NCBI GenBank assembly: GCA_030037665.1 | Contig: JASHQG010000754.1 | Coordinates: forward strand, 1-37,798 | DNA: 37,798 nucleotides | Source: Acetobacteraceae bacterium | GTDB lineage: Bacteria; Pseudomonadota; Alphaproteobacteria; Acetobacterales; Acetobacteraceae | Direction of reading: 5' to 3' | In this document: positions 447-29,384 of the stretch, piece after piece | How positions within the stretch are numbered: the first letter of the stretch is position 1 | How the letters are laid out: every line of letters starts with the position of its first letter | The notes under the pieces: generated by a model | The model's input: the letters and a program-made list of their open reading frames with translations, nothing else | Database searches by the model: none | Told to the model about the DNA's origin: nothing | Program-made: the position numbers and the translations under genes

Positions 447-2801
447 TTACTCCGCGGCCAGCACCTTGCGTGGCGGCGTCTGCACCACCGGCGCCAACTC
501 TGGCGCGTTGAACGACGACGACCGCCGGTCGTTGGACACCCGTCGGTACAGCGTGTCGCGCTGCATCGGCACCCGGCCGATGCCGCTGATCAGCGCTTCC
601 ATCGCCTCAGGCGGATACTCCTGGCCATGCTGGGTGCCGGCGGCGCGCGAGATGCTTTCGTTCATCAGCGTGCCGCCCATGTCGTTAGCGCCGGCGTTCA
701 GGCACATCGCCGCCCCCTCCGGTCCCATCTTCACCCACGAGGTCTGGATGTTGGTGATCAGCGGATGCAGTACCAAGCGCCCGACGGCGTGCATCAGCAC
801 GGCCTCACGCAGCGTTGGTCCTTTGCGTGCCAAGCCGCGCAGATACATAGGCGCTTCCATGTGCACGAAAGGCAGCGGTACGAATTCGGTGAAGCCGCCG
901 GTCTCTGCCTGCAGATCGCGCAGCACCAGCAGATGTCGCGCCCAGTTCAGCGGAGATTCGACGTGGCCGTACATGATCGTGGATGTCGTGCGCAGACCCA
1001 GTGCATGCGCCGCTCGCGCCACTGCGATCCATTGCGCGGTGTTGATCTTGTCCGGGCAGATGATGGCGCGGATCTCGTCGTCGAGGATTTCCGCAGCCGT
1101 CCCTGGCAAGGTTCCGAGACCGGCGGCCCTCAACTCGGCAAGAAACTCCGATAGTGACCGCCCGATCGTCGCCGCGCCCTGCGTCACTTCCAGTGGCGAG
1201 AATGCGTGTATATGCATCCCCGGCACAGCCGCCTTTATCGCCTTGCAGATGCCGATATAGGTCGCGCCGGTGTAGTCGGGGTGGATGCCCCCCTGCAGGC
1301 ACACTTCCGTGGCGCCGCGATCCCAGGCTTCCTGTGCGCGGCGCACGATCTCGTCCCAGTCGAGATCATATGGCGTACCGCGTAGCGCTTCGTGCGTCCT
1401 GCCTTTGGAAAACGCACAGAACTTGCAACGGTAGTAACAGATGTTGGTGTAGTTGATGTTACGGTTCACCACGTAGCGCACAACGTCGCCGCTAACCGCC
1501 TGGCGAAGTTCGTCGGCAGCCGTCGTGACGCGGTGATAGTCGGCGTCGCGTGCTGAGAACAGACGCACGATCTCCGCTTCGTTCAGCCTACGTCCGGCCG
1601 CGGCCTTAGCGATCGTCGCTTCGATCAGTGGATCGACGCTGTCGAGCAGTGCGGGCTTCGGCTGCGGCGCGATCGGGACACCCGGCGCCCAGACATCATC
1701 CCGTGCCCAGCCTTGGCTGTCGGCAAGCTGCCGCACACGGGTTGCGACCGCGGGCGCAAACCAGCGTTCCGGCTGCGCCACGGCGCGGGGGTAGGCCGGC
1801 AGCCGCGCCACCAGGATCTTGCCCATCGCTGCGGTGCGGCGGGCGAGGTCGTCCAGATGCGGCCATGGGGCCTCGGGGTTCACGTGGTCCGGCGTGATCG
1901 GCGACACGCCGCCCCAGTCATCGATGCCTGCCGAGATCAGTTTTTCATAGACGCCGCGTGAAAGATTCGGCGGGGCCTGCACGTGTACGTCGTCCGGCAG
2001 GATCAGTCGCGTAACGGCAACGCTCCAGAGCAGGTCGTCGAGATCCGGATCGGGCGCGCTCGCACGTTTCGTGTTCGGCTTGGCGCGAAAGTTCTGCACG
2101 ATCACTTCGCCGATATGGCCGTGGCGTTCGTGCAATTCACGAATCGCCAGCAGCGATTCCAGACGTTCGGCGCGCGTCTCGCCGATGCCGATCAGGATTC
2201 CTGTGGTGAAAGGCACTGCGAGCTCGCCGGCCAGCGCGATGGTCGCCAGCCGCGCTGCAGGGGCCTTGTCCGGGGAGCCATAATGCACCTGACCCGGTTC
2301 ACACAGCCGCGCACTCGAGGATTCCAGCATCACGCCCATGCTGGCGGAGACCTCGCGCAATGACTCGATCTCGTCCCGCGTCATAACGCCCGGATTAACG
2401 TGCGGCAGCAGGCTGGTCTGCTTCAGCACCAGCGCGCACATCTCACGTAGATAGCTGATGGTGGTTTCGTGTCCGAGGGCGCCAAGCGCTTCGCGCGCGG
2501 CCCGGTAGCGGAGTTCCGGCTTGTCGCCAAGCGTGAATAAGGCCTCAGTACACCCCGCGGCGGCGCCGGCGCGCGCGATGGCAAGCACGTCGTCGGCGGA
2601 TAGATACGCGGGATGACCGGCGCGCGGCCGCTCGGCAAACGTGCAGTAGTGGCACACGTCTCGGCACAGCTTGGTCAGAGGGATGAATACCTTGCGCGAA
2701 TAGGACACCAGCCGCCCGAACGCGGCGTCGCGTTTCGCGGTAGCCTGCGCCATCAGCTCGGGTAGCGGCGCATGTTCCAACCAGGTCCGATCGGTGCTCA
2801 T
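447..2801 (-). CDS. fbiC: Bifunctional FO synthase (7,8-didemethyl-8-hydroxy-5-deazariboflavin synthase), fused CofG/CofH
   Basis: The protein has two radical-SAM CX3CX2C motifs, CRDVCHYC in the N-terminal half and CYYRCKFC in the C-terminal half. CofH-like segments include TEVCLQGGIHPDYTG, PGTAAEILDDEIR and CPDKINTAQW. Start taken at MSTDRTW (ATG 2801-2799), which overlaps the upstream stop. Confidence 0.95.
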   Translation of the reverse strand: MSTDRTWLEHAPLPELMAQATAKRDAAFGRLVSYSRKVFIPLTKLCRDVCHYCTFAERPRAGHPAYLSADDVLAIARAGAAAGCTEALFTLGDKPELRYRAAREALGALGHETTISYLREMCALVLKQTSLLPHVNPGVMTRDEIESLREVSASMGVMLESSSARLCEPGQVHYGSPDKAPAARLATIALAGELAVPFTTGILIGIGETRAERLESLLAIRELHERHGHIGEVIVQNFRAKPNTKRASAPDPDLDDLLWSVAVTRLILPDDVHVQAPPNLSRGVYEKLISAGIDDWGGVSPITPDHVNPEAPWPHLDDLARRTAAMGKILVARLPAYPRAVAQPERWFAPAVATRVRQLADSQGWARDDVWAPGVPIAPQPKPALLDSVDPLIEATIAKAAAGRRLNEAEIVRLFSARDADYHRVTTAADELRQAVSGDVVRYVVNRNINYTNICYYRCKFCAFSKGRTHEALRGTPYDLDWDEIVRRAQEAWDRGATEVCLQGGIHPDYTGATYIGICKAIKAAVPGMHIHAFSPLEVTQGAATIGRSLSEFLAELRAAGLGTLPGTAAEILDDEIRAIICPDKINTAQWIAVARAAHALGLRTTSTIMYGHVESPLNWARHLLVLRDLQAETGGFTEFVPLPFVHMEAPMYLRGLARKGPTLREAVLMHAVGRLVLHPLITNIQTSWVKMGPEGAAMCLNAGANDMGGTLMNESISRAAGTQHGQEYPPEAMEALISGIGRVPMQRDTLYRRVSNDRRSSSFNAPELAPVVQTPPRKVLAAE

Positions 2802-3757
2802 ACCGTGCATATGACCTCTTCGGCGAAACGCTGCATGACCTCGAGCGTCTCCTCGAGCGTCGAGCGTTGCAGGTACAAAATTACGTGCCGCGCCCCGGCC
2901 TCCTCCAGTGCTGCAGCGTCCTCCAGCATGTCAGCACTGCTGCCCGAGAACAACTGCCGGGGGGCCCCGGGGGCGCGCTCGGGGTGGAAAACCGGCGGAC
3001 CGAACCACAAATAGCCGATATCGAGCGACGCCGGATCGCGCCTCGCTTGTTCGGCGGCGCGATGCAGTGTGGCGACTCCGGCCTGCAGGCGGTCCGGTGT
3101 GTCCAGCCGCACGCTCTGATTGTTGGAGACGGGATACCATCCATCGCCAAGCTGCACCGCGCGGCGCATCGCCGCCGCGCTCTCGCCTCCAACCCAAATG
3201 GGCGGGTGTGGCTCCGATGCAGGCTTCGGCGCGAATACCACGTTGTCGAAATTCGTGTACTTTCCGCGAAACGCCGGGCGCTGCTGTGTCCACAGCGCTT
3301 TCCACGCGCGCACATATTCGTCGGTGACGGCGCCGCGATCCTCGAAAGGAGGGGTCCCGAGCGCTGCAAATTCCTCGCGCATCCAACCGGAGCCGACGCC
3401 CGCAATAACACGTCCGCCAGACAGCACGTCGGCGGTCAGCAACAGTTTGGCGGCGAGTACGGCGGGACGATACGGGACGACGACCACAGAAGTCAGCAAT
3501 TTGATGCGCTGCGTGCAGCCGGCAAGGAAGGCGAGCGTGGCGATCGCATCGAAACACTCACCGGTGGCCCATCCAGGCCATACACCATCGGTGGTGTAGG
3601 CATAGCGATCGCCGTGCTTCGGCGGTACCACCAGATGATCGGCAACGCCAAGATACGCGTAGCCCAGCGCCTCGGCGCGCTGCGCAATCGTCACGACGTT
3701 CTCGCGTGCGACGAAGCAGCCGCGCGTGCCCAGATGAATGCCGAAATCCATTGACAC
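2798..3757 (-). CDS. LLM-class (luciferase-like) oxidoreductase, probably F420-dependent
   Basis: Luciferase-like TIM-barrel motifs: LGYAYLGVADHLVVP, LLTSVVVVPYRPAVLAAKLL, GGRVIAGVGSGWMREEFAALG, PPIWVGGESAAAMRRAV. It overlaps fbiC by ATGA. Confidence 0.9.
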   Translation of the reverse strand: MSMDFGIHLGTRGCFVARENVVTIAQRAEALGYAYLGVADHLVVPPKHGDRYAYTTDGVWPGWATGECFDAIATLAFLAGCTQRIKLLTSVVVVPYRPAVLAAKLLLTADVLSGGRVIAGVGSGWMREEFAALGTPPFEDRGAVTDEYVRAWKALWTQQRPAFRGKYTNFDNVVFAPKPASEPHPPIWVGGESAAAMRRAVQLGDGWYPVSNNQSVRLDTPDRLQAGVATLHRAAEQARRDPASLDIGYLWFGPPVFHPERAPGAPRQLFSGSSADMLEDAAALEEAGARHVILYLQRSTLEETLEVMQRFAEEVICTV

Positions 3758-3827
3758 CCCCGATTGCGCCGGTCCACGGCATCGTGTGCTATCGGCTCAG
3801 GCAGAGCAATTCAAGCAGGAGGAACAA

Positions 3828-4784
3828 ATGCAGATCGGATGCAGCGCGCCCACGAGCGGCCCACTGATCGAACCCGACAGCTTGCTGCGTATTGCCACCG
3901 AGGCCGAGATGCTGGGCTTCGACTATGTCACGGTCAGCGACCATATCATGATACCCACCAGCATCGCGTCGCGTTATCCGTATTCCGAGTCGGGCGAGTT
4001 TCCCTCCGGTGCCGCCGCGCCGCGACTGGAGCAACTGACGGCGGCGACGTTTATCGCGGCTGCGACCTCGAAGCTGCGCATCGTCACCTCGGTGATGGTG
4101 GTGCCGCACCGGCCGGCGGTGCTGACGGCGAAGATCCTGGCGACGCTTGATTACCTGTCAAAAGGCCGCCTGACCCTGGGAATCGGTGCCGGCTGGTGCA
4201 AAGAGGAATTTGAGGCCATCGGTGCACCGCCGTTCGATGACCGCGGCCACGTCACCGACGAATGGATGATGGTCTGCAAGGAGCTCTGGAGCAGCGAGAA
4301 GCCGAAGTTTGACGGTAAATATGTCAAGTTTTCAGACGTCCTCTTTCCGCCGAAGCCGGTGCAGAAGTCCATCCCGATCTGGATCGGCGGTGAAAGTGGC
4401 CCGGCAATGCGTCGCACGGCGAAATATGGCGACGCCTGGTATCCGATCGGCACCAATCCACAATTCCCGATGGACACGCTCACCCGTTACAAAGCGGGTG
4501 TTGCGAAACTACGCGCCATGGCAGAGAAGGCGGACCGCAAAGCGTCGGACGTCACGTTGGCGTATCGGGTCTCCTCGAACCCCGACGCTCAGCCCAAGGG
4601 CACGGTCGATGGGGAGCGTAAACTCTTCACCGGTAGCGCGGCCGATTATGCCGGCGATATCCGTACGTTGTCGGAAGTTGGCGTCACCGCGTTCGACTTC
4701 GGTATGTTCGGCCCGACTCTGGCGGCCACGATCGACAACATGCGCCGCTTCCGCGACGAGGTGGCGGCAAAGGTGCGCTCGTAA
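3828..4784 (+). CDS. LLM-class oxidoreductase, probably F420-dependent
   Basis: MQIGCSAPTSGPLIEPDSLL...GFDYVTVSDHIMIP...GRLTLGIGAGWCKEEFEAIG...IPIWIGGESGPAMRR. AGGAGG-type SD just upstream of ATG 3828, which is preferred over the longer ORF start at 3738. Confidence 0.9.
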   Translation: MQIGCSAPTSGPLIEPDSLLRIATEAEMLGFDYVTVSDHIMIPTSIASRYPYSESGEFPSGAAAPRLEQLTAATFIAAATSKLRIVTSVMVVPHRPAVLTAKILATLDYLSKGRLTLGIGAGWCKEEFEAIGAPPFDDRGHVTDEWMMVCKELWSSEKPKFDGKYVKFSDVLFPPKPVQKSIPIWIGGESGPAMRRTAKYGDAWYPIGTNPQFPMDTLTRYKAGVAKLRAMAEKADRKASDVTLAYRVSSNPDAQPKGTVDGERKLFTGSAADYAGDIRTLSEVGVTAFDFGMFGPTLAATIDNMRRFRDEVAAKVRS

Positions 4785-4896
4785 CGTCCCTGCCGGTTGT
4801 GAAAGGCGGTAGGGGAGGGCGCCACCGTGCGGCACGCTGCGTTGTCCTCTGACGCCTCTCACGCAGCGGGATGGGAAGTGCGGAGGGAGAACGCCC

Positions 4897-5853
4897 ATGC
4901 AGTTCGGCTTCAACGCCCCAACATCAGGCCCCATGATCGATCCCGACAGCCTGGTGCAGATCATCGCCGAAGGCGAAGCACTCGGGTTCGACTATGTGAC
5001 GGTCAGCGACCACATCATGGTGCCGCGAAACCTGGGGTCGAAATATCCCTACACCGACACGGGCGAGTTTCCGGCCGGTCCGACCGCGCCCTGGCTCGAG
5101 CAACTCGCCACGACCGCGTTCATCGCGGGGATCACGCAGAAGCTGCGGTTCGTCATGTCGGTCATGGTGGTACCGTACCGGCCGGCCGTGCTGACCGCGA
5201 AGATTCTCGCTACCATCGATCATCTGTCCAAAGGCCGCCTGACTCTCGGCATCGGTGTCGGCTGGTGCCGTGAGGAATTCGACGCCATCAACGCTGCGCC
5301 GTTCGACGACCGCGGCCACGTCACCGACGAATGGATGGCGGTCTGCAAGGAACTGTGGACCGCCGGCGAACCGCGGTTCGAAGGCAAATACGTTAACTTC
5401 GCCGACGTGGTGTTCGCGCCGAAACCACCACAGCAGCCGATCCCGATCTGGGTTGGCGGCGAGAGCGGCCCGGCTCTGCGACGCACCGTCCGTTATGCCG
5501 ACTGCTGGTATCCCGTCGGCACCAATCCGCACCTGCCGATGAACACGGTCGAGCGATTCAGAACGGGTATGGCGAGGCTGCGCGAGGTGGCGGAGAAAGC
5601 TGGCCGCGATCCATCCTCCATAGCCGTTGCCCTCCGCGTTCTGGCAGGCCCGAGCGAAGTGCGACCTCGCCGCAGCATCGACGGCGCGGGCGAAATGTTT
5701 ACCGGCGGCGCAGCCCATTACGCCGACGACATCCGTGCGTTGAAGGACCTCGGCGTTGCTGCAGTCGATGTGCGACTGTTCGGGTCGACCATCAGCGCGA
5801 CGATCGACAATATGCGCCGCTTCCGCGACGACGTCATAGCGAAGGTCCGTTAG
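4897..5853 (+). CDS. LLM-class oxidoreductase, probably F420-dependent, tandem paralogue of the preceding gene
   Basis: MQFGFNAPTSGPMIDPDSLVQI...GFDYVTVSDHIMVP...GRLTLGIGVGWCREEFDAIN...IPIWVGGESGPALRR. Collinear with the 3828-4784 product over its full length. GGAGGGAG SD. Confidence 0.92.
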   Translation: MQFGFNAPTSGPMIDPDSLVQIIAEGEALGFDYVTVSDHIMVPRNLGSKYPYTDTGEFPAGPTAPWLEQLATTAFIAGITQKLRFVMSVMVVPYRPAVLTAKILATIDHLSKGRLTLGIGVGWCREEFDAINAAPFDDRGHVTDEWMAVCKELWTAGEPRFEGKYVNFADVVFAPKPPQQPIPIWVGGESGPALRRTVRYADCWYPVGTNPHLPMNTVERFRTGMARLREVAEKAGRDPSSIAVALRVLAGPSEVRPRRSIDGAGEMFTGGAAHYADDIRALKDLGVAAVDVRLFGSTISATIDNMRRFRDDVIAKVR

Positions 5854-5868
5854 AAAAGGAAAGACAAC

Positions 5869-6909
5869 ATGCGCCTGGGCATCACTGTTGATATGTCGGG
5901 TTCTGCCCCGAAGTTGAACATGGAGCGCGTGCTGGAAGCGGAGCGCCTGGGCTTCGAACAGGCCTGGACCGGTGAGGCCTATGGTACCGACGCCGTCACA
6001 CCCGCGACCTGGATGCTCGCGCGCACCACGCGGCTGAAAGTTGGCACCGGGATCATGCAAATTCCCGCACGGACGCCGGCCTGCGCCGCGATGACAGCGA
6101 TGACGCTACAGCACATGTCTGGCGGGCGCTTTCTCTGCGGCCTGGGCGTATCTGGCCCTCAGGTCATCGAAGGCTGACATGGCGTGCGTTTCGGCAAGCC
6201 GATGACACGAACGAAGGAATACATTGCGATCATCAAGCAGATTCTGGAACGCAAGGCGCCGCTGAGCTTCAAAGGCGAGGAATACGAAATCCCCTACTCC
6301 GGACCTGCAGCGACGGGCCTGGGCAAGCCTCTCCGCAGCATCACCCACGGTGATCCGTCGCTGCGGTTCTATTTGGCGTCCATCACGCCGGCCGGTTTGC
6401 GGACCGCCGGTGAATGCGCCGACGGCGTGTTGCCCATCTTCTATTCACCAAGTCAGCCGCGAATTGTCTCCGATCCCCTGCTGGACGGCATGAAGAAAGC
6501 TGGTCGCCCTGTCACACTGGAGAATTTCGATGTCGCGCCGTACGTGCGTGCCAAGATGGGCCCCGACGTGGCGGCCTGCCGGGACCAGATCCGGCCGGAA
6601 CTCGCATTGTATATCGGCGGGATGGGCGCGCGGACAAAGAATTACTACAACGACGTGGCGATCAAGCTGGGCTACGAGGGTGAGGCCAGGACCATTCAGG
6701 ACCTGTATCTCGACGGCAAAAAGAACGAGGCTGCCACTGCCGTGCCTGACAAGCTGATCGATGAAATTTCACTGGTAGGGCCCGCGGAAAGGATCAAGGA
6801 CCGGCTTGCCGCCTGGATGGATGTGGCGAATTCCGGAAATCTCGGCACTATGGTCCTGAAGGGCGCCAACGTCGATGTGATGCGTGTGGTAGCAGAGACG
6901 GTGCTCTAG
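5869..6909 (+). pseudogene. LLM-class F420-dependent oxidoreductase interrupted by one in-frame TGA (6175-6177)
   Basis: The ORFs 5869-6177 and 6184-6909 are in the same frame. The joined product reads ...[14 protein letters not shown][TGA]HGVRFGKPMTRTKEYIAIIKQIL..., a continuous LLM protein with no other stop. Confidence 0.85.
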
Positions 6910-6956
6910 GCGATGAGCAGCCGCCTGTTCCGCATTCCTCTCGCCACCGCGCCAAC

Positions 6957-7586
6957 ATGATCCTGATCGGTCAGTACGATTCGCCGTTCGTACGGCGCGT
7001 TGCGGTTGCGCTTCGCCTCTATGAACTGCCGTTCGAGCACCGCCCGTGGTCGACCTTCAGCGACGGAGACCTTATCGCCCAATTCAACCCGTTGCGTCGT
7101 GTGCCCACGCTCGTGTTGGACAATGGCGAGGTGCTGATCGAGAGTGGTGCCATCCTCGATTATCTGGACGAAACGGCAGGGCCGTCGCGCGCGTTGATCG
7201 CGCGTGGTGGCGAGCTTCGTCGGCACGCGCTGAAGGTTTGTGCGCTCGCGACCGGTCTTGCCGACAAGGCCGTCAGTCTGGTCTACGAACAAGTGCTGCA
7301 TCAGACGACATCGGTCCATTGGGTAGAGCGGTGCCAGGCGCAGATTTCCGCCGCAATGAACGTGCTGGAAGCCGATCGTGCGGGCAGGGGCAGTTCCTTT
7401 TGGGCTGGAGATTCTATTGGCCACGCTGATATCGCCGTTGCCTGCGCCTTGCGTTTTATCGGCGACGCGCATGCTGGCCTGTTCGATCCGGGGCGCTGGC
7501 CGGCATTGGCCGCGCATCTTGCGACCTGCGAGCGGCTTCCGGTGTTTCAGGAGATCGCCCAGCCGTTCAATCCACCTCGCCGTTGA
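6957..7586 (+). CDS. Glutathione S-transferase family protein
   Basis: MILIGQYDSPFVRRVAVALRLYELPFEHRPW...FNPLRRVPTLVLDNGEVLIESGAILDYLDE, a typical N-terminal thioredoxin-fold GST domain, with GHADIAVACALRF in the C-terminal domain. Confidence 0.92.
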   Translation: MILIGQYDSPFVRRVAVALRLYELPFEHRPWSTFSDGDLIAQFNPLRRVPTLVLDNGEVLIESGAILDYLDETAGPSRALIARGGELRRHALKVCALATGLADKAVSLVYEQVLHQTTSVHWVERCQAQISAAMNVLEADRAGRGSSFWAGDSIGHADIAVACALRFIGDAHAGLFDPGRWPALAAHLATCERLPVFQEIAQPFNPPRR

Positions 7587-7596
7587 GGTTGTCGTC

Positions 7597-8253
7597 ATGC
7601 CCTCGACATTCAACGCCCACAATGCCGCAGCCTATGAGCAAGCAATGGGGCGCTGGAGCCGGCGCCTCGCTCCATTGCTGATCGGCTTTGTGGGGGTGGC
7701 GGACGGCGAACGCATCCTCGATTTCGGCTGTGGCACCGGCAGTCTGACATTTGCATTGCCACGCGCTGCCAACGTCGCGTCGGTGACCGGAATCGATTTT
7801 GCCCGGCCTTATGTGGAGCATGCGCTCGCCGTTAACACCGATCCGCGCATCACACTTTAGCAGGGTGACGCTTGTGCCATGACGTTCGAGGCGGCGCGCT
7901 TCGACCGCGCTATGGCCATGCTATCATTGCAGTTCATGCCACACCCGGATCATGCAGTGGCGGAGATGCGGCGCGTCGTGCAGCCCGGAGGGCTTGGCAC
8001 GCTCTGGCGTTGTGCTGGCCTCGCGGATGTTGGCGAAACTTCGCCGCTGATCCGGATGGATTACGCGGATTTCAATGATTACTGGCAGCCGATTGCCTCG
8101 GGCAAGGGGTCGCTCGGACAGTATCACGCCTCGCTGGATGCGGCGTCGCAGTCGGGGCTGCGCGAGCGCGTGCGTGCAGCATTTCTGGGTGGTGCCGAGG
8201 ACGGGCCGCGCAGCTTTGCGGCGGTGGCGCTGGCGTGTCGCCGCGTGGTGTGA
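7597..8253 (+). pseudogene. Class I SAM-dependent methyltransferase interrupted by one in-frame TAG (7858-7860)
   Basis: MPSTFNAHNAAAYEQAMGRWSRRLAP...ERILDFGCGTGSLTFALP...DPRITL[TAG]QGDACAMTFEAARFDRAMAMLSLQFMPHPDHAVAEMRRVVQPGG...ACRRVV. Both halves are in one frame and together cover the expected domain. Confidence 0.85.
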
Positions 8254-8550
8254 GATCCACAAAGAATCCGCTGCCATCATGCCCCGAAAATGCGTCGGTT
8301 CTCCGGAGATCTCCCGCCAGGATCGATGCCTCCAGCCGTGCACGGCCAGAGCCCACCATGACGGTCGTCTGTTGTTTGTTCGTTGCCAGGCTTGGTCGCG
8401 CGCAACGCGAGGAGAACTCCGCGCTGAGCGATACCACGGCACTGACACGATATCAGTCCCCTGGCATGAGGATCAGCACCGGGCTGTCCACCCCCCCCCG
8501 CGCGTGGATGGGTCCGGCGATGCCACGTCCGCTGGCAGGCCGCTCGAGGA

Positions 8551-9777
8551 TCAGCCGTGCCACTGCACAATATACAGCCCGGCGTCGTAGTCCGTGAGAT
8601 AGACCAGTCCGTCCTGTGCCGCAAACAGATCCGCGGTGTGGCGAATCTTCGCCCGACCACGCATTGGCTCCATCCAATGCGTAGGTTTCGGCGGGACGAA
8701 GTAGCCGATCTCCTCGGGTCGGTACGGATCGGCTATGTCGAACACCCGCAGTCCGGCGCTCTGCCAGGTGGCGAAAATCGTCGTGGAGGACTGAAAAGAA
8801 CCGGGCCGGTTCTCGTGCAGGTTATGTGGGCCGAACTGGCCGCCGAGCTTCAGATAATCCTGGTCGGACGGAACCGGCATGGTGGCGATGCTGACCGGAT
8901 TGCTCTTGTCGCGGACGTCGAACACCCAGGTGCGCTTGTGCTGGCCTTCGACATCGATGTTCAGCACTGCCTCGTCGGCCACTACCAGCAGGTCGCGGTC
9001 GTGCAGTGGCAGCGCGCTATGCGTGCCGCCGCCATAGGGCGGGCACCAGTTGCGATGCGCGATCAGCTTCGGCGCCGATTTGTCCTTGACGTCCAGAATG
9101 GTCAGCCCGCCGTCGCGCCAGCTGCCATAAGCGACGTCATCAGCGACCACTGCGTGGTGCAGCGCCCAGCGGTTCTTCCAACCCGGCGTCTCGCCGCCAG
9201 CAGCGTGCATGCCGGGTATCCACCAGCGCCCGACTTCGCGCGGGCGCGACGGTTCGTTCATGTCGATAATGATCAGGATGTGGTCGGTGTAACCGTCCAG
9301 CAGTGCCGATGCGTAGGCATAACGTCCGCCGGTCCACCAGATGCGGTGCAGGCCCAGTCCCTCTACCTCCATGAAACCGATGGAGCGCGGATTGGCCGGA
9401 TCGGAAATGTCATAAACCCGCATGCCGGCCGAGAAATCCTCGCCTCGCTTGCCATACCGCGATGAGTCCACCTGATTCGACTGGCTGTAGTATTCCTTCT
9501 GTGACAGCAGAGCCTTCAGATCGAGCTCCTCAATACACAGCAGCAGGTCGTTGGCGGCCTGCAGATGCATGCACCAGGAATTCGGATGGATCGGCGCGAA
9601 GTTCACCGGTCTGGGGTTTCGCGGGTCCCGCACGTCGGTGACCATGACGCCGCGGCTGACCCGCGTGCCGATGTATGCATGACCACGCGAAACCATCACC
9701 TGTACTCCGTCGCCACGTCCGCCCTGGCCGGTGTGGCCGACGAAACGGACATTGCGCGCGCCCTCTGGGACGATCAT
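8551..9777 (-). CDS. LVIVD-repeat beta-propeller-type protein
   Basis: Repeated [AG]x(V/L)D(I/V)xDPxxPxxx units: RGVMVTDVRDPRNPRPV, GMRVYDISDPANPRSIG, GLTILDVKDKSAPKLI, RTWVFDVRDKSNPVSIA, GLRVFDIADPYRPEEIG. Confidence 0.88.
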   Translation of the reverse strand: MIVPEGARNVRFVGHTGQGGRGDGVQVMVSRGHAYIGTRVSRGVMVTDVRDPRNPRPVNFAPIHPNSWCMHLQAANDLLLCIEELDLKALLSQKEYYSQSNQVDSSRYGKRGEDFSAGMRVYDISDPANPRSIGFMEVEGLGLHRIWWTGGRYAYASALLDGYTDHILIIIDMNEPSRPREVGRWWIPGMHAAGGETPGWKNRWALHHAVVADDVAYGSWRDGGLTILDVKDKSAPKLIAHRNWCPPYGGGTHSALPLHDRDLLVVADEAVLNIDVEGQHKRTWVFDVRDKSNPVSIATMPVPSDQDYLKLGGQFGPHNLHENRPGSFQSSTTIFATWQSAGLRVFDIADPYRPEEIGYFVPPKPTHWMEPMRGRAKIRHTADLFAAQDGLVYLTDYDAGLYIVQWHG

Positions 9778-12310: not shown

Positions 12311-13129
12311 ATGGATGACAGCGAAGCACCCGACTCGTCCACCGGTCTGGAGGACGTGCTCAACCAATGGGACGTGCGTCTGGCGCAGCTGGAACACGAG
12401 GCGGCGGCAACGCTGCGTGCTGCGAAGCGCCTGCGCCGGGCGGCGCAGGAGGGCGCGGTCGCCCGCTTTCCCGATGCGGTCGCCGACCTGCAGGATTGTG
12501 CCGCGAAGCTGCACGTTTCCGTGCACCATGCTGCGCATCCGCCAGCCATCGACCTGGCGGAGGCCTTCGCTGACGGCAGCTTCCTGGCCGAGTTGGCCCG
12601 CGCCGCCGCGGCCGCCAACGTGACCTTGGTGGAGCGTGACGGACGCGTCACCGCTTACCCCGTCGTGCTGCGCCTGGAGCCGCGTGCGCAGGGCGTGCGA
12701 ATCGGCCGGAGGCTGGAGCGCCGCATCCGTCCGAGCTTCCTTGCCCGCCATCTGCGCGCGCTGCAGCAGCGCCCCGGCCGCTTCAATCCCCGCACCTTCC
12801 TCGAGCGCGTGTTCCTCGGCTACGCCGTGCTGGCGCCAGCCCGCGCCGCGGATTGGCAGCCAAACCGTCGGGGGGAGGGGCCTCTGGTGCCGCTCGCGGA
12901 CCTGCACAACGTGTTGACGCTGCTGCCGGCCGCTGCTGCCGAATGCCCGCTGGAGGAGTTCCTGGTCGATCTTCTCCGACTCAATCGCCATCCCGATACG
13001 CGGACCGGCCGTGGCCACCGCTTCGAGCTCGGCGGCTCGACCGGCACCAAGGGTGCCAAGCGGCTGTCGGCATTTGACGAAACCGGCGCACGGCACGATT
13101 TTTACGCGGTTCGTTTCACCCTGGAGTAG
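12311..13129 (+). CDS. Hypothetical protein, first gene of a three-gene ATPase operon
   Basis: 272 aa, MDDSEAPDSSTGLEDVLNQWDVRLAQLEHEAAATLRAAKRLRRAA..., predicted helical or coiled-coil N-terminus by inspection. No family recognised. Three bp separate its TAG from the TTG at 13133; the ATG at 13136 is 6 bp downstream. Confidence 0.8.
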   Translation: MDDSEAPDSSTGLEDVLNQWDVRLAQLEHEAAATLRAAKRLRRAAQEGAVARFPDAVADLQDCAAKLHVSVHHAAHPPAIDLAEAFADGSFLAELARAAAAANVTLVERDGRVTAYPVVLRLEPRAQGVRIGRRLERRIRPSFLARHLRALQQRPGRFNPRTFLERVFLGYAVLAPARAADWQPNRRGEGPLVPLADLHNVLTLLPAAAAECPLEEFLVDLLRLNRHPDTRTGRGHRFELGGSTGTKGAKRLSAFDETGARHDFYAVRFTLE

Positions 13130-13135
13130 CACTTG

Positions 13136-14098
13136 ATGGACGTAATCGACGTCCAGGCCCTGCCCGCCGCACGGTGGCTGCAGGTCGTCGAGCCGGAGTA
13201 TTTCGCCCACTTTCTGCCATCCGGTGGGGCGGCGGCGAAATTCGTGGTCGCGGACGATAGCGGCATCAGGCGCCTGCGCCAGGCTGTGGCGGCGCTGGCG
13301 CAGCGGCACGGCATGCTGGCCGCGCATGTCGATGCCGGCGAGACCCGCCTTCATATGCTGCACGACGTGTTCTTCGCCGCTGCCCGCGCCTTGCCCTGGG
13401 ACGATTTGATCCAGGGCTTTATTGAGGGCATGTTCAACCGCAACGGTCATCCCTGGCCGCAGCCTCGCGTTGCGCTGACCATGGCCGAATTGGCACAGCG
13501 TCTCGGCATGGACGACGAGGAGCTGGCCCGCAATCGCAACCGGTGGCTGAGCCGTGAATTGTGGGAGGACGCCGCGCTGGCACAAGACTTCCGCATCGCC
13601 ATGTTGCGGCTGTGTCTCGCCCGGCTGGACCCGGATGTATACGACAGCCCCGATTTGCCGGTGCTGCCGTGGCTGCGGGGAGAGAAGCTGGGTTTGGGCG
13701 ATCTCCGCCGGTACGATATCGCCGCGCGCATCAACCGAAACAATGCGCGCGCGATGTTGGTCTCGCTCTGCCATTTCGTGCGCAAGGCGGGGCGGCACGG
13801 CTTGCTGCTGACGTTGGACTTGCGTCGTGCGCTGCACCCGCCCGGACCGGACGCGGCCGGGCTGCACTATTCCGCCAGCGCTCTGATGGATCTCTTCGAA
13901 GTCTTGCGTGAATTGGTCGACGACATCGAGCACCTCGCCGGCATGTTCCTGCTGGTCCTGGCGGACCAGGGGCTGGTGTCCGGGGAACATCGCCGGACTC
14001 TCGACAATTACAAGGCGCTGGAGATGCGGATCTGGCCCGACGTGCGGCCTGGTGACCAGCAGAACCCGCTGGCGCCGCTGGTGACGGTGAGCGCATGA
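13136..14098 (+). CDS. Probable degenerate P-loop (BrxC/BrxD, DUF2791-like) pseudo-ATPase
   Basis: SGGAAAKFVVADDSGIRRLRQAVAALAQRHGMLAAHVDAGETRLHMLHDVFFAAARALPW sits where a BrxD-type P-loop region would be, but without GKS/T. GRHGLLLTLDLRRAL resembles a Walker B strand without the catalytic Glu. The C-terminal HRRTLDNYKALEMRIWPDVR is also ATPase-family-like. Its stop overlaps the next start (ATGA). Confidence 0.6.
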   Translation: MDVIDVQALPAARWLQVVEPEYFAHFLPSGGAAAKFVVADDSGIRRLRQAVAALAQRHGMLAAHVDAGETRLHMLHDVFFAAARALPWDDLIQGFIEGMFNRNGHPWPQPRVALTMAELAQRLGMDDEELARNRNRWLSRELWEDAALAQDFRIAMLRLCLARLDPDVYDSPDLPVLPWLRGEKLGLGDLRRYDIAARINRNNARAMLVSLCHFVRKAGRHGLLLTLDLRRALHPPGPDAAGLHYSASALMDLFEVLRELVDDIEHLAGMFLLVLADQGLVSGEHRRTLDNYKALEMRIWPDVRPGDQQNPLAPLVTVSA

Positions 14099-15309
14099 AT
14101 CTGGAATCCCGCACCGCAATCGAAGCCTTGCGTGCCGGCGTGCCGAACCGTGCCGTCGTGCGCCTGATGGGAGCCGGCAACGTCGATCTGGAGAAGGATT
14201 TCCGCGCTTTGCTGGACGCGGCCGGTACACGTCCCGGCATGGGATTTGCCGGCGGATTTGGCACGGGAAAGTCGCACACGCTGACATCGCTCGCCGAAGT
14301 CGCGCGCGACCGGCGCTTCGTCGTAAGCCGCGTGGTGATCAGCAAGGAGACGCCACTCGCTGATTTTGGCCGCGTCTTCGAGGCCGCCATGCGCAGTGCC
14401 GCGTTGCCGGACCGCAATGACGATGCGCTCTCGGCTTCCCTGGCTGCATTGCGCGCGGCGCCGGACCAGCTGACGGCGTTGCATGAGGCCGTCAGCCGAC
14501 CGGATTCCGGCCTTTCCGGTATTTTCGCCGCCATACTCTTCCTGTTGCGCCAGCCGTCACAAGCGCCCGAGGTGGTGCGGCGTTGCGAACGTTTCCTCGC
14601 CGGCGGAAAGATGCCCAGCAGCGTGTTCCGCAAGGCACTGGTGCAACATCACGTGTCGCGCAAGTTCAATCTGCGGCAGCCGTCGGCTGCGGAGCTGGCT
14701 GCGCAGCGCATCCGCTTCGCCAGTCTGTTGTTCCGCGCGGCCGGTTACGCGGGCTGGTGTGTTGCGTTCGACGAAGTGGAGCTGATTGGCCGCTATTCGC
14801 CGATGCAACGCGCGCTGGCCTATGCCTCACTGGCGGTGTGGCTTGGGCTCGATAACACGATACGGTTTGCGGGGATCGCCGTTGTCTACGCGATCACGGA
14901 TGACTTCGTCGCCGCTGTGGTGGAGCACCGTCACGACCAAGATGAGGCGCCGGAGCGGCTGCGTCTAAAGGGGCGCGATGCGGACGCAATGCGCGCCCTG
15001 ACCGGCATCCGGCATATCAAGGATGCAGTGCAGAACCACCGCCTGGCCACGCCGAACGAGGAGGAATTGCGCAGAGATGGACAGCTCCTGCGCGAGATCT
15101 ACGCGGGAGCTTACGATTGGAGCACACCTCAACTGCCGGCGATCGAGCGTACCGCAACGCGCACGATGCGGCAGTATATCAAGGCATGGATCACCCAGTG
15201 GGACATGCTGAGGGTGGCGGGGACTGCTGTGTCAGTCGTGGAACGGCCACTCGGCAGCAATTACGCACAGGACCAAACGCTGGGTGCGGCGGAGGAAGAC
15301 ACAGAGTAG
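14095..15309 (+). CDS. P-loop ATP-binding protein resembling BREX BrxC/BrxD (DUF2791 class)
   Basis: Walker A GGFGTGKSHTL, Walker B GWCVAFDEVELIGRY, Arg-rich RLRLKGRDADAMRAL. VVISKETPLADFGRVFEAAM resembles the BrxD-type region after the P-loop. Confidence 0.75.
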   Translation: MNLESRTAIEALRAGVPNRAVVRLMGAGNVDLEKDFRALLDAAGTRPGMGFAGGFGTGKSHTLTSLAEVARDRRFVVSRVVISKETPLADFGRVFEAAMRSAALPDRNDDALSASLAALRAAPDQLTALHEAVSRPDSGLSGIFAAILFLLRQPSQAPEVVRRCERFLAGGKMPSSVFRKALVQHHVSRKFNLRQPSAAELAAQRIRFASLLFRAAGYAGWCVAFDEVELIGRYSPMQRALAYASLAVWLGLDNTIRFAGIAVVYAITDDFVAAVVEHRHDQDEAPERLRLKGRDADAMRALTGIRHIKDAVQNHRLATPNEEELRRDGQLLREIYAGAYDWSTPQLPAIERTATRTMRQYIKAWITQWDMLRVAGTAVSVVERPLGSNYAQDQTLGAAEEDTE

Positions 15310-15323
15310 CCGCTTTTGCGGCT
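15308..15323 (+). terminator. Hairpin at the 3' end of the three-gene operon
   Basis: Perfect AGCCGC-TTTT-GCGGCT stem-loop overlapping and immediately following the stop codon. No U-tract, so intrinsic termination is uncertain. Confidence 0.4.
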
Positions 15324-15791
15324 GCACTCACTCCCGTCATGACGAGGAGCGGAGCATCGAGGCAGCTGTTGCTTGGCGACGATAAGCAGGATTGCCGCGT
15401 TTTTTCCGGGACGTGCCCGTGAGCGAGTCGGTCATCCTACTCATTCTTTGATAGTCGATACTGTTTATGCTCTTGTGCGCCGCAGCCGCTCGATACCTCG
15501 GATGCCCCCGCATCAACCCGGCACACCCACCGCGCGTGCTGAGTCCGGTCCTATTCTGACCCCTCGCGTCACCATGCTGCCGAGCATAGCCCATGGTTAT
15601 CTCATGCTCGTTGCCGGAACCGAAATCGGTTGAGGGACGCGGTGCCGCTCAATGCCGGAATCTGACGCTTCGTTCCGCAAAACCTCTGCTCTCCCTGCGT
15701 CTCTGCGTTGGACTGATCGTTGGACCGATCGTCCCTTGCCCCTGTGCCACGCCGCGCCGACACTCGGCCTTCAACCGGATAGGAGTCGATC

Positions 15792-21236: not shown

Positions 21237-21695
21237 ATGAACGCATGGCCGGGAACGCTCGCTGCGCTGGTCGCCATGTCAACATTCTCCAGTCTTGCCG
21301 GAACGCTATGCTCCCTCGTCTCCCGTGGAGAAGATGCGCATGACTGGTCCGCTCCCCGCGCCAGCGAAACCAGGTGGCTCGAGATGATTGGCGGGCCGAT
21401 TATTGAACTCGTGAGCCCTGATCTGTCCCGCGCGGTGTGCAAGCCGGTCAAGGTTGATATGCGGTTCCGCGCGCCGCCGGGCGTGAGTGTGATTATGAAC
21501 ACGCTCCGGGTAAGCTAAGGGCGGCCTGGAATAGACATCATCCGTTGGCTGTTGCGACATGCCACTGTGACCAAAAATAGGATCTTCGCGACCGGTGCGG
21601 ACATTCCCAAGGCTCGGCACAGCCGGACCGTGTCGGTTGAGGACAGCGCGGCCCGGCCTGGCCCGAGGACCTTCGTGATACCCGTTGTCCGGTAG
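21237..21695 (+). pseudogene. Small secreted Ig-like-fold-type hypothetical protein interrupted by in-frame TAA (21516-21518)
   Basis: MNAWPGTLAALVAMSTFSSLAGTLC...GGPIIELVSPDLSRAVCKPVKVDMRFRAPPGVSVIMNTLRVS[TAA]GRPGIDIIRWLLRHATVTKNRIFATGADIPKARHSRTVSVEDSAARPGPRTFVIPVVR*. The frame stays open and protein-like for 58 codons after the TAA. Only the 5' part is in the ORF track. Confidence 0.65.
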
Positions 21696-22606
21696 CGGGC
21701 CACCGGCCGCGATGGCCGTCGAGGCTGCGGCGGGCGACGAGGGTCGCGACGTACCTTGTAGCCGGGGGGCGGGCGTGGGTTCCGATCCTGCTCGAGAAAT
21801 ACCGCCCCTCGACTTGCTCCCGCTACAGAGCAGTGGCCTGGTTCCGCCTGCGCAGGGCCAGGTCGCGCCGACGATGTCACCTACCGAGCCTGAGGGTCGC
21901 CCCGAAAATGGTTTCGATGCCTCGAGACTGACGTGAACATTCGCCTCCTGAGGCCACGATTGATCGTCCCGCAAATCCGTATCGCCCACCCCGATCCTGA
22001 TGGAGGCGACGGTACGGCAGATGCCAAACCGACGTCTGCAGAATGGGCGGCGAGACTCACGACGACGTCGGATCCTCTTTGCTGAGACAGCTCCACTTCG
22101 CATTTTCGGAATACTCGTCGTTGCGGGGCAAGAGCGGACCGTGCACGCGGCGCAGTCGTTCGAATCGCCTGCCCTGAGGCCCAGGCCACAAGGTCGAAGC
22201 TGGACGTCCCCCTGATTTCGCGATCGCTGTCCGGCGCCGCGACCTCGCGGACACCCACCCCGGGGAGTTGGTATATGCGACAACGATGACCTGCGACACT
22301 CACCGAGGGTCCGATTTGCAACGGTCATATACGGCTGGCGCTCTCGACCCCATGCGATCAGTTCAAATCGTACAACGGCTGCCGGATGACGGCATCCTGC
22401 GCGTGCGGTCCGAAACCCGAAACGGCCCCGACGGATGGCCGAAGATGGTTCTGGCCGGGGCGCAGGGCTGATAAATGTGTCTGCAGTCGTGGCCCTTGTT
22501 CGGTAGCATTCGTGAACGAAAATCATCATTACAAAATGCGGGCCGATAGTACCGCCGCTTGACATTTATTCTGCAATTTGCAACCAGTCTGACCTTAACG
22601 ACAAAG

Positions 22607-28026: not shown

Positions 28027-28103
28027 GATGAGTAGAACGCGCCGGGCTGCAGCCGCTCCTGATATCGTCTGCGCCGGGCGCGGCACCGCCCTGGAGGATG
28101 CCG

Positions 28104-29384
28104 ATGAAACTGATGTGGTTCCATCTGATGCCGTACACCGAGCTTCCGGACAATTTCCGTGAAGCCAACCCGTCGGTATGGGTGGACATCCATTCCTCCC
28201 TGTTCGATCCGCAGCGCGCTCACCTGATGTACAACGACTTCATGGATGAGCTCGAATTTGCCGCGCAGTGTGGCTTCGATGCGGTGTGTGTGAACGAACA
28301 TCACTCCAACGGCTACGGACTGATGCCGTCACCCAATTTGATCGCCTCGTCGCTGGCGCGCCGCACCACAGAGACGGCGATTTGCGTGATGGGCAATTCG
28401 CTGGCGTTGTACAATCCGCCGACGCGCGTCGCCGAAGAATTCGCAATGATCGACTGCATCTCCGGTGGACGGCTGATCGCCGGCTTCCCGGTCGGAACGC
28501 CCATGGATACCTGCTACGTTTACGGCACCAATCCGAGCCAGCTCCGTCAGCGCTATCATGAGGCGCACGACCTTGTGCTGCGCGCGTGGACCGAGCAGGA
28601 CACGTTCGCCTTCAACGGCCGCTTCAATCAGCAACGCTATGTGAACATCTGGCCGCGGCCGGTGCAGCGGCCACATCCGCCGATCTGGATTCCGGGTGGA
28701 GGTTCCGTCGAAACGTGGCGCTGGTGCGCCGAGATGGACTATGTCTACTGCTACCTGTCGTATTACGGCTACAAGGCTGGTCGTGCTACCATGGATGGCT
28801 TCTGGGCGGAGATGAAGCGGCTGGGCAAGGAGCCGAACCCGTACCACGCCGGCTTTCTGCAGTTCGTTGGGGTGGGCGAATCCCGCCAGCATGCCTTCGA
28901 CCTTTACGCCGAGGCTGCCGAGTACTTCTATGGTCGCTGCCTGCACGTGGACGCGCGCTGGGCCACGCCCCCAGGCTACACCAGCGAAGGCAGCCAACGC
29001 GCTGGCATCGAATCTCAGATCAAGCAGGCGGCGGATGCGAACGTGCGCGGCAAGTCCACCGGCGAGCGCTTCGCTTCGGTGGCGCGCGAGATGGATGCGA
29101 TCGTCGAAAAGGGCTATGTTATCATCGGCTCGCCTAGCGATGTCGCCGAGCAGTTGCGCGAAGTGGCGGTCAACCTGAACGTCGGTCACCTGATGCTGCT
29201 TTTGCAGTTCGGCAACATGAGCAAGGAGTTGTGCCGCTACAACACGCAGAGCTTCGCACGCGACGTGATGCCGAAGCTGAAGGGTCTGTTTTCTGAGTGG
29301 AACGACCGCTGGTGGCCGCAGCCGATGGAGGTGGCCCAGCGCGCCGAGGTACCGGCGTTCCTGCCGAAACTTGCAGCCGAATAA
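28104..29384 (+). CDS. LLM-class flavin-dependent oxidoreductase (bacterial luciferase-like)
   Basis: MKLMWFHLMPYTELPDNF, DELEFAAQCGFDAVCVNEHHSNGYGLMPSPNLIASSLARRT, GGRLIAGFPVGTPMDTCYVYG, HPPIWIPGGGSVETWRWCAE. GGAGG SD favours ATG 28104 over 28098. Confidence 0.92.
   Translation: MKLMWFHLMPYTELPDNFREANPSVWVDIHSSLFDPQRAHLMYNDFMDELEFAAQCGFDAVCVNEHHSNGYGLMPSPNLIASSLARRTTETAICVMGNSLALYNPPTRVAEEFAMIDCISGGRLIAGFPVGTPMDTCYVYGTNPSQLRQRYHEAHDLVLRAWTEQDTFAFNGRFNQQRYVNIWPRPVQRPHPPIWIPGGGSVETWRWCAEMDYVYCYLSYYGYKAGRATMDGFWAEMKRLGKEPNPYHAGFLQFVGVGESRQHAFDLYAEAAEYFYGRCLHVDARWATPPGYTSEGSQRAGIESQIKQAADANVRGKSTGERFASVAREMDAIVEKGYVIIGSPSDVAEQLREVAVNLNVGHLMLLLQFGNMSKELCRYNTQSFARDVMPKLKGLFSEWNDRWWPQPMEVAQRAEVPAFLPKLAAE

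Follow-up and report, generated by a model that had tools for sequence, protein, structure and literature searches.

A small operon pairing a BrxD-class ATPase with a putative inactive paralogue recurs in the Acetobacteraceae

What does an ATPase of the BrxC/BrxD type do when it stands in a compact three-gene operon among catabolic genes? The question is raised by a stretch of 37,798 nucleotides from an Acetobacteraceae bacterium (hereafter the window), in which the genes P1 (12311-13129, 272 aa), P2 (13136-14098, 320 aa) and P3 (14095-15309, 404 aa) follow each other on the plus strand. P1 and P2 are separated by 6 nt, while P2 and P3 overlap by 4 nt (ATGA); the mechanical ORF start of P2 is an alternative TTG at 13133. 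Genes were called with a codon-usage model trained on these genomes, longest-ORF calls being misleading in GC-rich DNA, and all three obtained strong coding scores. The frames, their spacing and these scores agree with the first-pass annotation, which had described three tightly packed genes at this place, and chance can be ruled out, since the locus is conserved in 28 further genomes of the family.

The flanking genes that were sampled encode acyl-CoA dehydrogenases, an SDR, amidohydrolases, luciferase-like monooxygenases, TauD and MFS proteins, in agreement with the earlier statement that the trio stands alone among catabolic genes. The accompanying claim that no nuclease, helicase, methylase or PglZ lies nearby also holds: a scan of the 20 larger neighbours in the window revealed none of these, nor a PglX/BrxX methylase or BrxC/PglY, and PglZ (PF08665) was not found anywhere in the draft genome assembly (803 contigs, about 97 % complete, 6 % contamination). 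Scans for promoters and terminators at the trio returned nothing, and no insertion repeats flank it, the repeats seen being short, imperfect and of the chance type. Elsewhere in the window, the stretch 447-6909 encodes a fusion of two radical-SAM parts whose C-terminal region is of the CofH type (FbiC-like, F420 cofactor synthesis), next to four luciferase-like monooxygenases, one of which aligns with no more than the C-terminal part of that family; a fifth lies at 28098-29384. Together they point to a genome with F420-type chemistry. On the minus strand, an ORF of 419 aa (21306-22565) matches nothing in Pfam and was passed over by the codon-model caller.

P3 is the active-type member of the trio. 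It matches PF10923 (BrxC/BrxD) with an E-value of 3.4e-16 and 59.6 bits, well above the Pfam gathering cut-off of 22.2, which confirms its earlier assignment as an ATPase of this type. Its Walker A (GGFGTGKSH) and Walker B (VAFDEVE) motifs are both intact; Walker A is present in 28/28 P3 members and D226-E227 of Walker B are invariant. In profile-profile comparisons P3 aligns with BrxD-type proteins from related genomes (E 1.8e-22) and with SngB of the Shango system (E 9e-13). Its score against the NCBIfam BrxD equivalog model NF033438, 37.8 bits, lies below the cut-off of 350, and PADLOC gives only weak BrxD and SngB matches (E 0.003 for SngB). Within the window's genome, PF10923 is confined to this locus. 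By these comparisons the closest kin of the module appear to be BrxD of BREX and SngB of Shango. The first-pass comparison was with BREX and overlooked Shango, which is as relevant.

The preceding gene encodes a relative of P3 that has lost its active site. P2 exceeds the PF10923 cut-off of 22.2 (26 bits, E 5.3e-6), and its previous description as P-loop-like with degenerate motifs was therefore correct, although its status as a PF10923 paralogue had escaped notice. Against NF033438 it reaches 25.6 bits, with the cut-off at 350. The GxxxxGK[ST] motif occurs in 0/25 P2 proteins, and in the 25 members checked the Asp of Walker B (D228) is kept and the following catalytic Glu is lost. In the profile-profile alignment, the P2 stretch GGAAAKFVVADDSGI stands opposite a BrxD stretch running into GEYGSGKTFF, which indicates that the P-loop has been lost in P2. 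Such comparisons relate P2 to BrxD (E 2e-18), SngB (E 2.6e-6) and P3 (E 5e-4). The AlphaFold2 model of P2 is confident (pLDDT 92); its fold matches in the PDB are weak and include the AAA+ proteins HslU, RdrA and ORC, none at E 0.001. Judged on sequence, P2 is a putative dead copy of the PF10923 ATPase and a candidate pseudo-ATPase partner of P3.

P1 remains the orphan it was first taken for, with no family match in Pfam, NCBIfam or PADLOC. Its AlphaFold2 model (pLDDT 89) predicts a long helical hairpin at about residues 13-75 (helices 13-47 and 50-75), followed by a compact C-terminal alpha/beta part in which the most conserved residues sit. The model has no match at E<=0.001 among PDB and viral structures, and a search of the PDB with the sequence profile returned only coiled-coil or designed-bundle matches. 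A relationship to TerB-like proteins or to SngA was considered and rejected (E 0.36 against the SngA profile; Pfam TerB in 0/24 P1 members).

How widespread is this arrangement? A P3 profile detects orthologs in 29/300 Acetobacteraceae genomes, including the window's, from many genera; 28 are full length and one is cut by a contig end. A scan of genome contigs with a single sequence yielded one relative. P1 is found in 28/300 genomes, and the two sets differ only where contigs end inside the module and by a partial P1 in genome G188. This fragment (G188:C158:3040-3447, profile positions 70-207), with no P3 detected in the same genome, may be a remnant or an effect of the contig. Wherever the contig allows, P1 and P2 adjoin P3 in the 29 genomes, and the order and overlaps of the trio are conserved across loci. 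The neighbourhood survey of the family thus bears out that the exact trio recurs in unrelated contexts. Outside the family, a complete P1-P2-P3 set followed by a fourth gene, P4, is present in a second family of the class (L151) and a P3-P4 pair at a contig edge in a third (L014), both in the class sample; a sample of 399 phylum genomes held no further full copy. Since four candidates were scored per genome in the class and phylum samples, these counts are lower bounds. Plasmid and phage collections contained no copies of the module, and the only match among viral contigs (L010, E 4e-4) is weak, partial and unconvincing.

P4 encodes an SNF2-type helicase of about 450 aa and is the variable part of the module. 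It directly follows P3 in 13/25 decidable family loci (L012, L013, L046, L048, L049, L052, L054, L056, L057, L059, L062, L064 and L065), often overlapping it by 14-20 nt, and is absent from the other 12 (the window, L011, L045, L047, L053, L055, L058, L060, L061, L063, L067 and L068); four loci at contig ends (L050, L051, L066 and L069) were left out of the count. In L056 and L057 the contig ends within P4. P4 also follows P3 in both copies outside the family, and in L151 (4006-5970) it is 654 aa long, owing to an N-terminal extension of about 200 residues that matches no Pfam family. The first-pass interpretation survives in part: BREX partners are missing and the trio recurs, but the idea that the trio is the whole minimal system finds no support in that form, a helicase coming next in about half of the relatives and in both outside copies. 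In the window, the corresponding site is the 482-nt gap at 15310-15791 (plus strand), where tblastn found no P4 remnant. A displaced P4 elsewhere in the window's genome was rejected, the best SNF2 protein there (about 908 aa, 38 % identity) scoring 282 bits as against 671-833 for true P4; similarly, in the genomes whose trio lacks an adjacent P4 the best other SNF2 protein reaches <=336 bits.

Mapped onto the P3 tree, presence or absence of the helicase requires no fewer than 6 changes, at least 4 of which are forced by well-supported branches. Short P4 remnants just downstream of P3 in L067 and L068 indicate that the gene was once present there and then decayed. Because such relics exist and both outside copies carry P4, repeated loss would be the simplest reading of a tree whose root is not fixed, and the window's copy would likewise have lost its helicase. 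Selection nevertheless acts on what is left. dN/dS lies mostly around 0.2-0.3 between helicase-less trios, two P1 pairs reaching 0.48 and 0.38, and at 0.16-0.28 between helicase-bearing ones (Nei-Gojobori, uncorrected for codon bias), so P1-P3 are under purifying selection also without P4. Nearly every copy has intact frames; in L066, P2 is split. Since 12 loci keep the trio without P4, the motor appears inessential to whatever function is selected.

Among described systems, BREX and Shango are the natural comparisons. Assigned to the ORC/Cdc6 class of AAA+ proteins, BrxD is encoded as a dyad with the helicase BrxHI, of which it has been proposed to be the loader or activator (PMC12839542). 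The module shares with the BrxD-BrxHI dyad of BREX type 2 a PF10923 ATPase of the ORC/Cdc6 class followed by a helicase. It differs in lacking BrxC/PglY, PglX, PglZ and PglW, in its doubled ATPase (one active and one inactive copy), in the addition of P1, and in a helicase that is optional and of the short SNF2 type, unlike the Ski2/Lhr-like BrxHI. It is not BREX, since the draft genome lacks PglZ, the scanned neighbours include neither a methylase nor BrxC, and the BrxD score stays far below the cut-off. Shango, which consists of SngA (TerB), SngB (ATPase) and SngC (helicase), blocks several phages (PMC10250203) and resembles the module in combining, within a small operon, an accessory protein and a helicase with a PF10923 ATPase, SngB being homologous to P3. 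Here P1 is unrelated to SngA/TerB, P3 scores weakly against SngB in PADLOC, a second, dead ATPase is added, and the optional helicase comes from another family than SngC; no SngC lies beside the window's P3, and relatives carry the SNF2 protein instead. Having no TerB protein and another type of helicase, the module is not Shango either.

P4 itself scores best against the SNF2 domains of ZorD (Zorya) and DpdE (Dpd) and shares the helicase type with these and with BrxHII (BREX type 3); unlike them, it is only about 450 aa, essentially a motor core without nuclease domain, and is absent from the window. Tandem PF10923 genes with a 4-nt overlap also occur in L138 (genome G722, 6601-9353; 430 and 487 aa). 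Both are closer to BrxD by Pfam score; a UvrD-like helicase of 809 aa is encoded upstream of them, homologues of P1 and P4 are missing, and they may represent a separate paired-ATPase system. The gene set studied here was found neither in PADLOC nor in the literature searched, whose coverage leaves out many journals. As the trio recurs in many related genomes with P4 adjoining in about half, it appears to be a minimal and so far undescribed relative of BREX and Shango, and we rate it as an uncatalogued variant of the systems that combine a BrxD-class ATPase with a helicase.

We give an even chance to the proposal that the trio is a horizontally moving DNA-remodelling module of ATPase and pseudo-ATPase with an optional SNF2 motor, whose most likely role is defence against phages or plasmids. 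P3, as a BrxD/SngB-class AAA+ ATPase, would combine with its inactive paralogue P2 into a mixed assembly able to load onto or remodel DNA. P1 may serve this assembly as a coiled-coil adaptor or sensor. P4 would be an SNF2-type DNA translocase that P2-P3 loads or activates, along the lines proposed for BrxD and BrxHI. What the sequences show is the list of parts, with their order, homology, recurrence and selection; formation of the complex, loading onto DNA and defence are inferred. Horizontal movement is suggested by the patchy presence of the module, by neighbours that differ from genus to genus (HisG, MlaA, Nramp, an M48 peptidase, alcohol dehydrogenases, SMC and PriA) and by genus g101, whose copies come from two distant branches of the P3 tree. 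In L012 (together with PriA), L046 and L048 a recombinase gene of the XerC type, recognized by motif only, adjoins the module or lies close to it, a possible sign of an insertion hotspot. Defence is suggested by the occurrence of PF10923 kin in BREX and Shango, and our best reading of the module is a probably defensive one. Counted against the proposal are that 12 loci keep the trio without the motor, that the module encodes no nuclease or other effector, that no convincing copy was found on phages, plasmids or viral contigs, and that it is not associated with defence islands, given that only a few of 120 flanking proteins match PADLOC at 1e-15. Besides SMC they include one HEC-07 and one type II nicking enzyme, and some are housekeeping proteins, SMC itself, for instance, matching mad3.

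The same surroundings lend themselves to a reading that we hold to be a genuine, if lesser, possibility, namely a module for DNA maintenance or stress on the chromosome, comparable to a helicase loader or to SMC or acting in repair, whose ATPase pair would remodel complexes of chromosomal DNA, the SNF2 protein being an accessory. It would fit a module embedded in ordinary metabolic or core genes with few defence genes near, not found in the plasmid and phage collections, kept intact without P4 under purifying selection in many genera and, in L013, located directly downstream of smc. A maintenance function is harder to reconcile with a trio carried by so small a part of the family next to changing neighbours, with the scattering of one genus over the P3 tree and with nearest named relatives that are parts of anti-phage systems.

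It is improbable, in our estimate, that P1-P2-P3-P4 is the complete system and that the copies without P4, the window's included, are defence cassettes on their way out. The P4 relics, the broken P2 of L066 and the presence of P4 in both copies outside the family speak for such decay, as does the broken P4 of L052, yet the trio of L052 is itself intact. Moreover, the trio is full length in almost every copy without P4, and purifying selection extends across well-separated species. A mere fragment of a BREX locus with its remaining genes elsewhere in the genome, as the scores of P2 and P3 against BREX BrxD models might suggest, is very hard to credit, for the assembly holds neither PglZ nor another PF10923 gene, no BREX gene adjoins any module locus examined, and the equivalog score of P3 is about a tenth of the cut-off.

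Defence by DNA remodelling stays our preferred reading. In its boldest form, to which we give rather little credence, the trio alone would be an active and new immune system, in which ATPase, pseudo-ATPase and coiled-coil sensor would deal with invading DNA using neither nuclease nor methylase, the SNF2 protein being dispensable.

To our knowledge, BrxD-class ATPases have so far been studied only within systems that contain other enzymes. A cassette stripped down to an active ATPase, its dead copy and a small partner, with or without a helicase, would allow the role of the ATPase to be tested directly. Since the trio is kept while the helicase is repeatedly absent, the family would also offer matched natural pairs for such tests.
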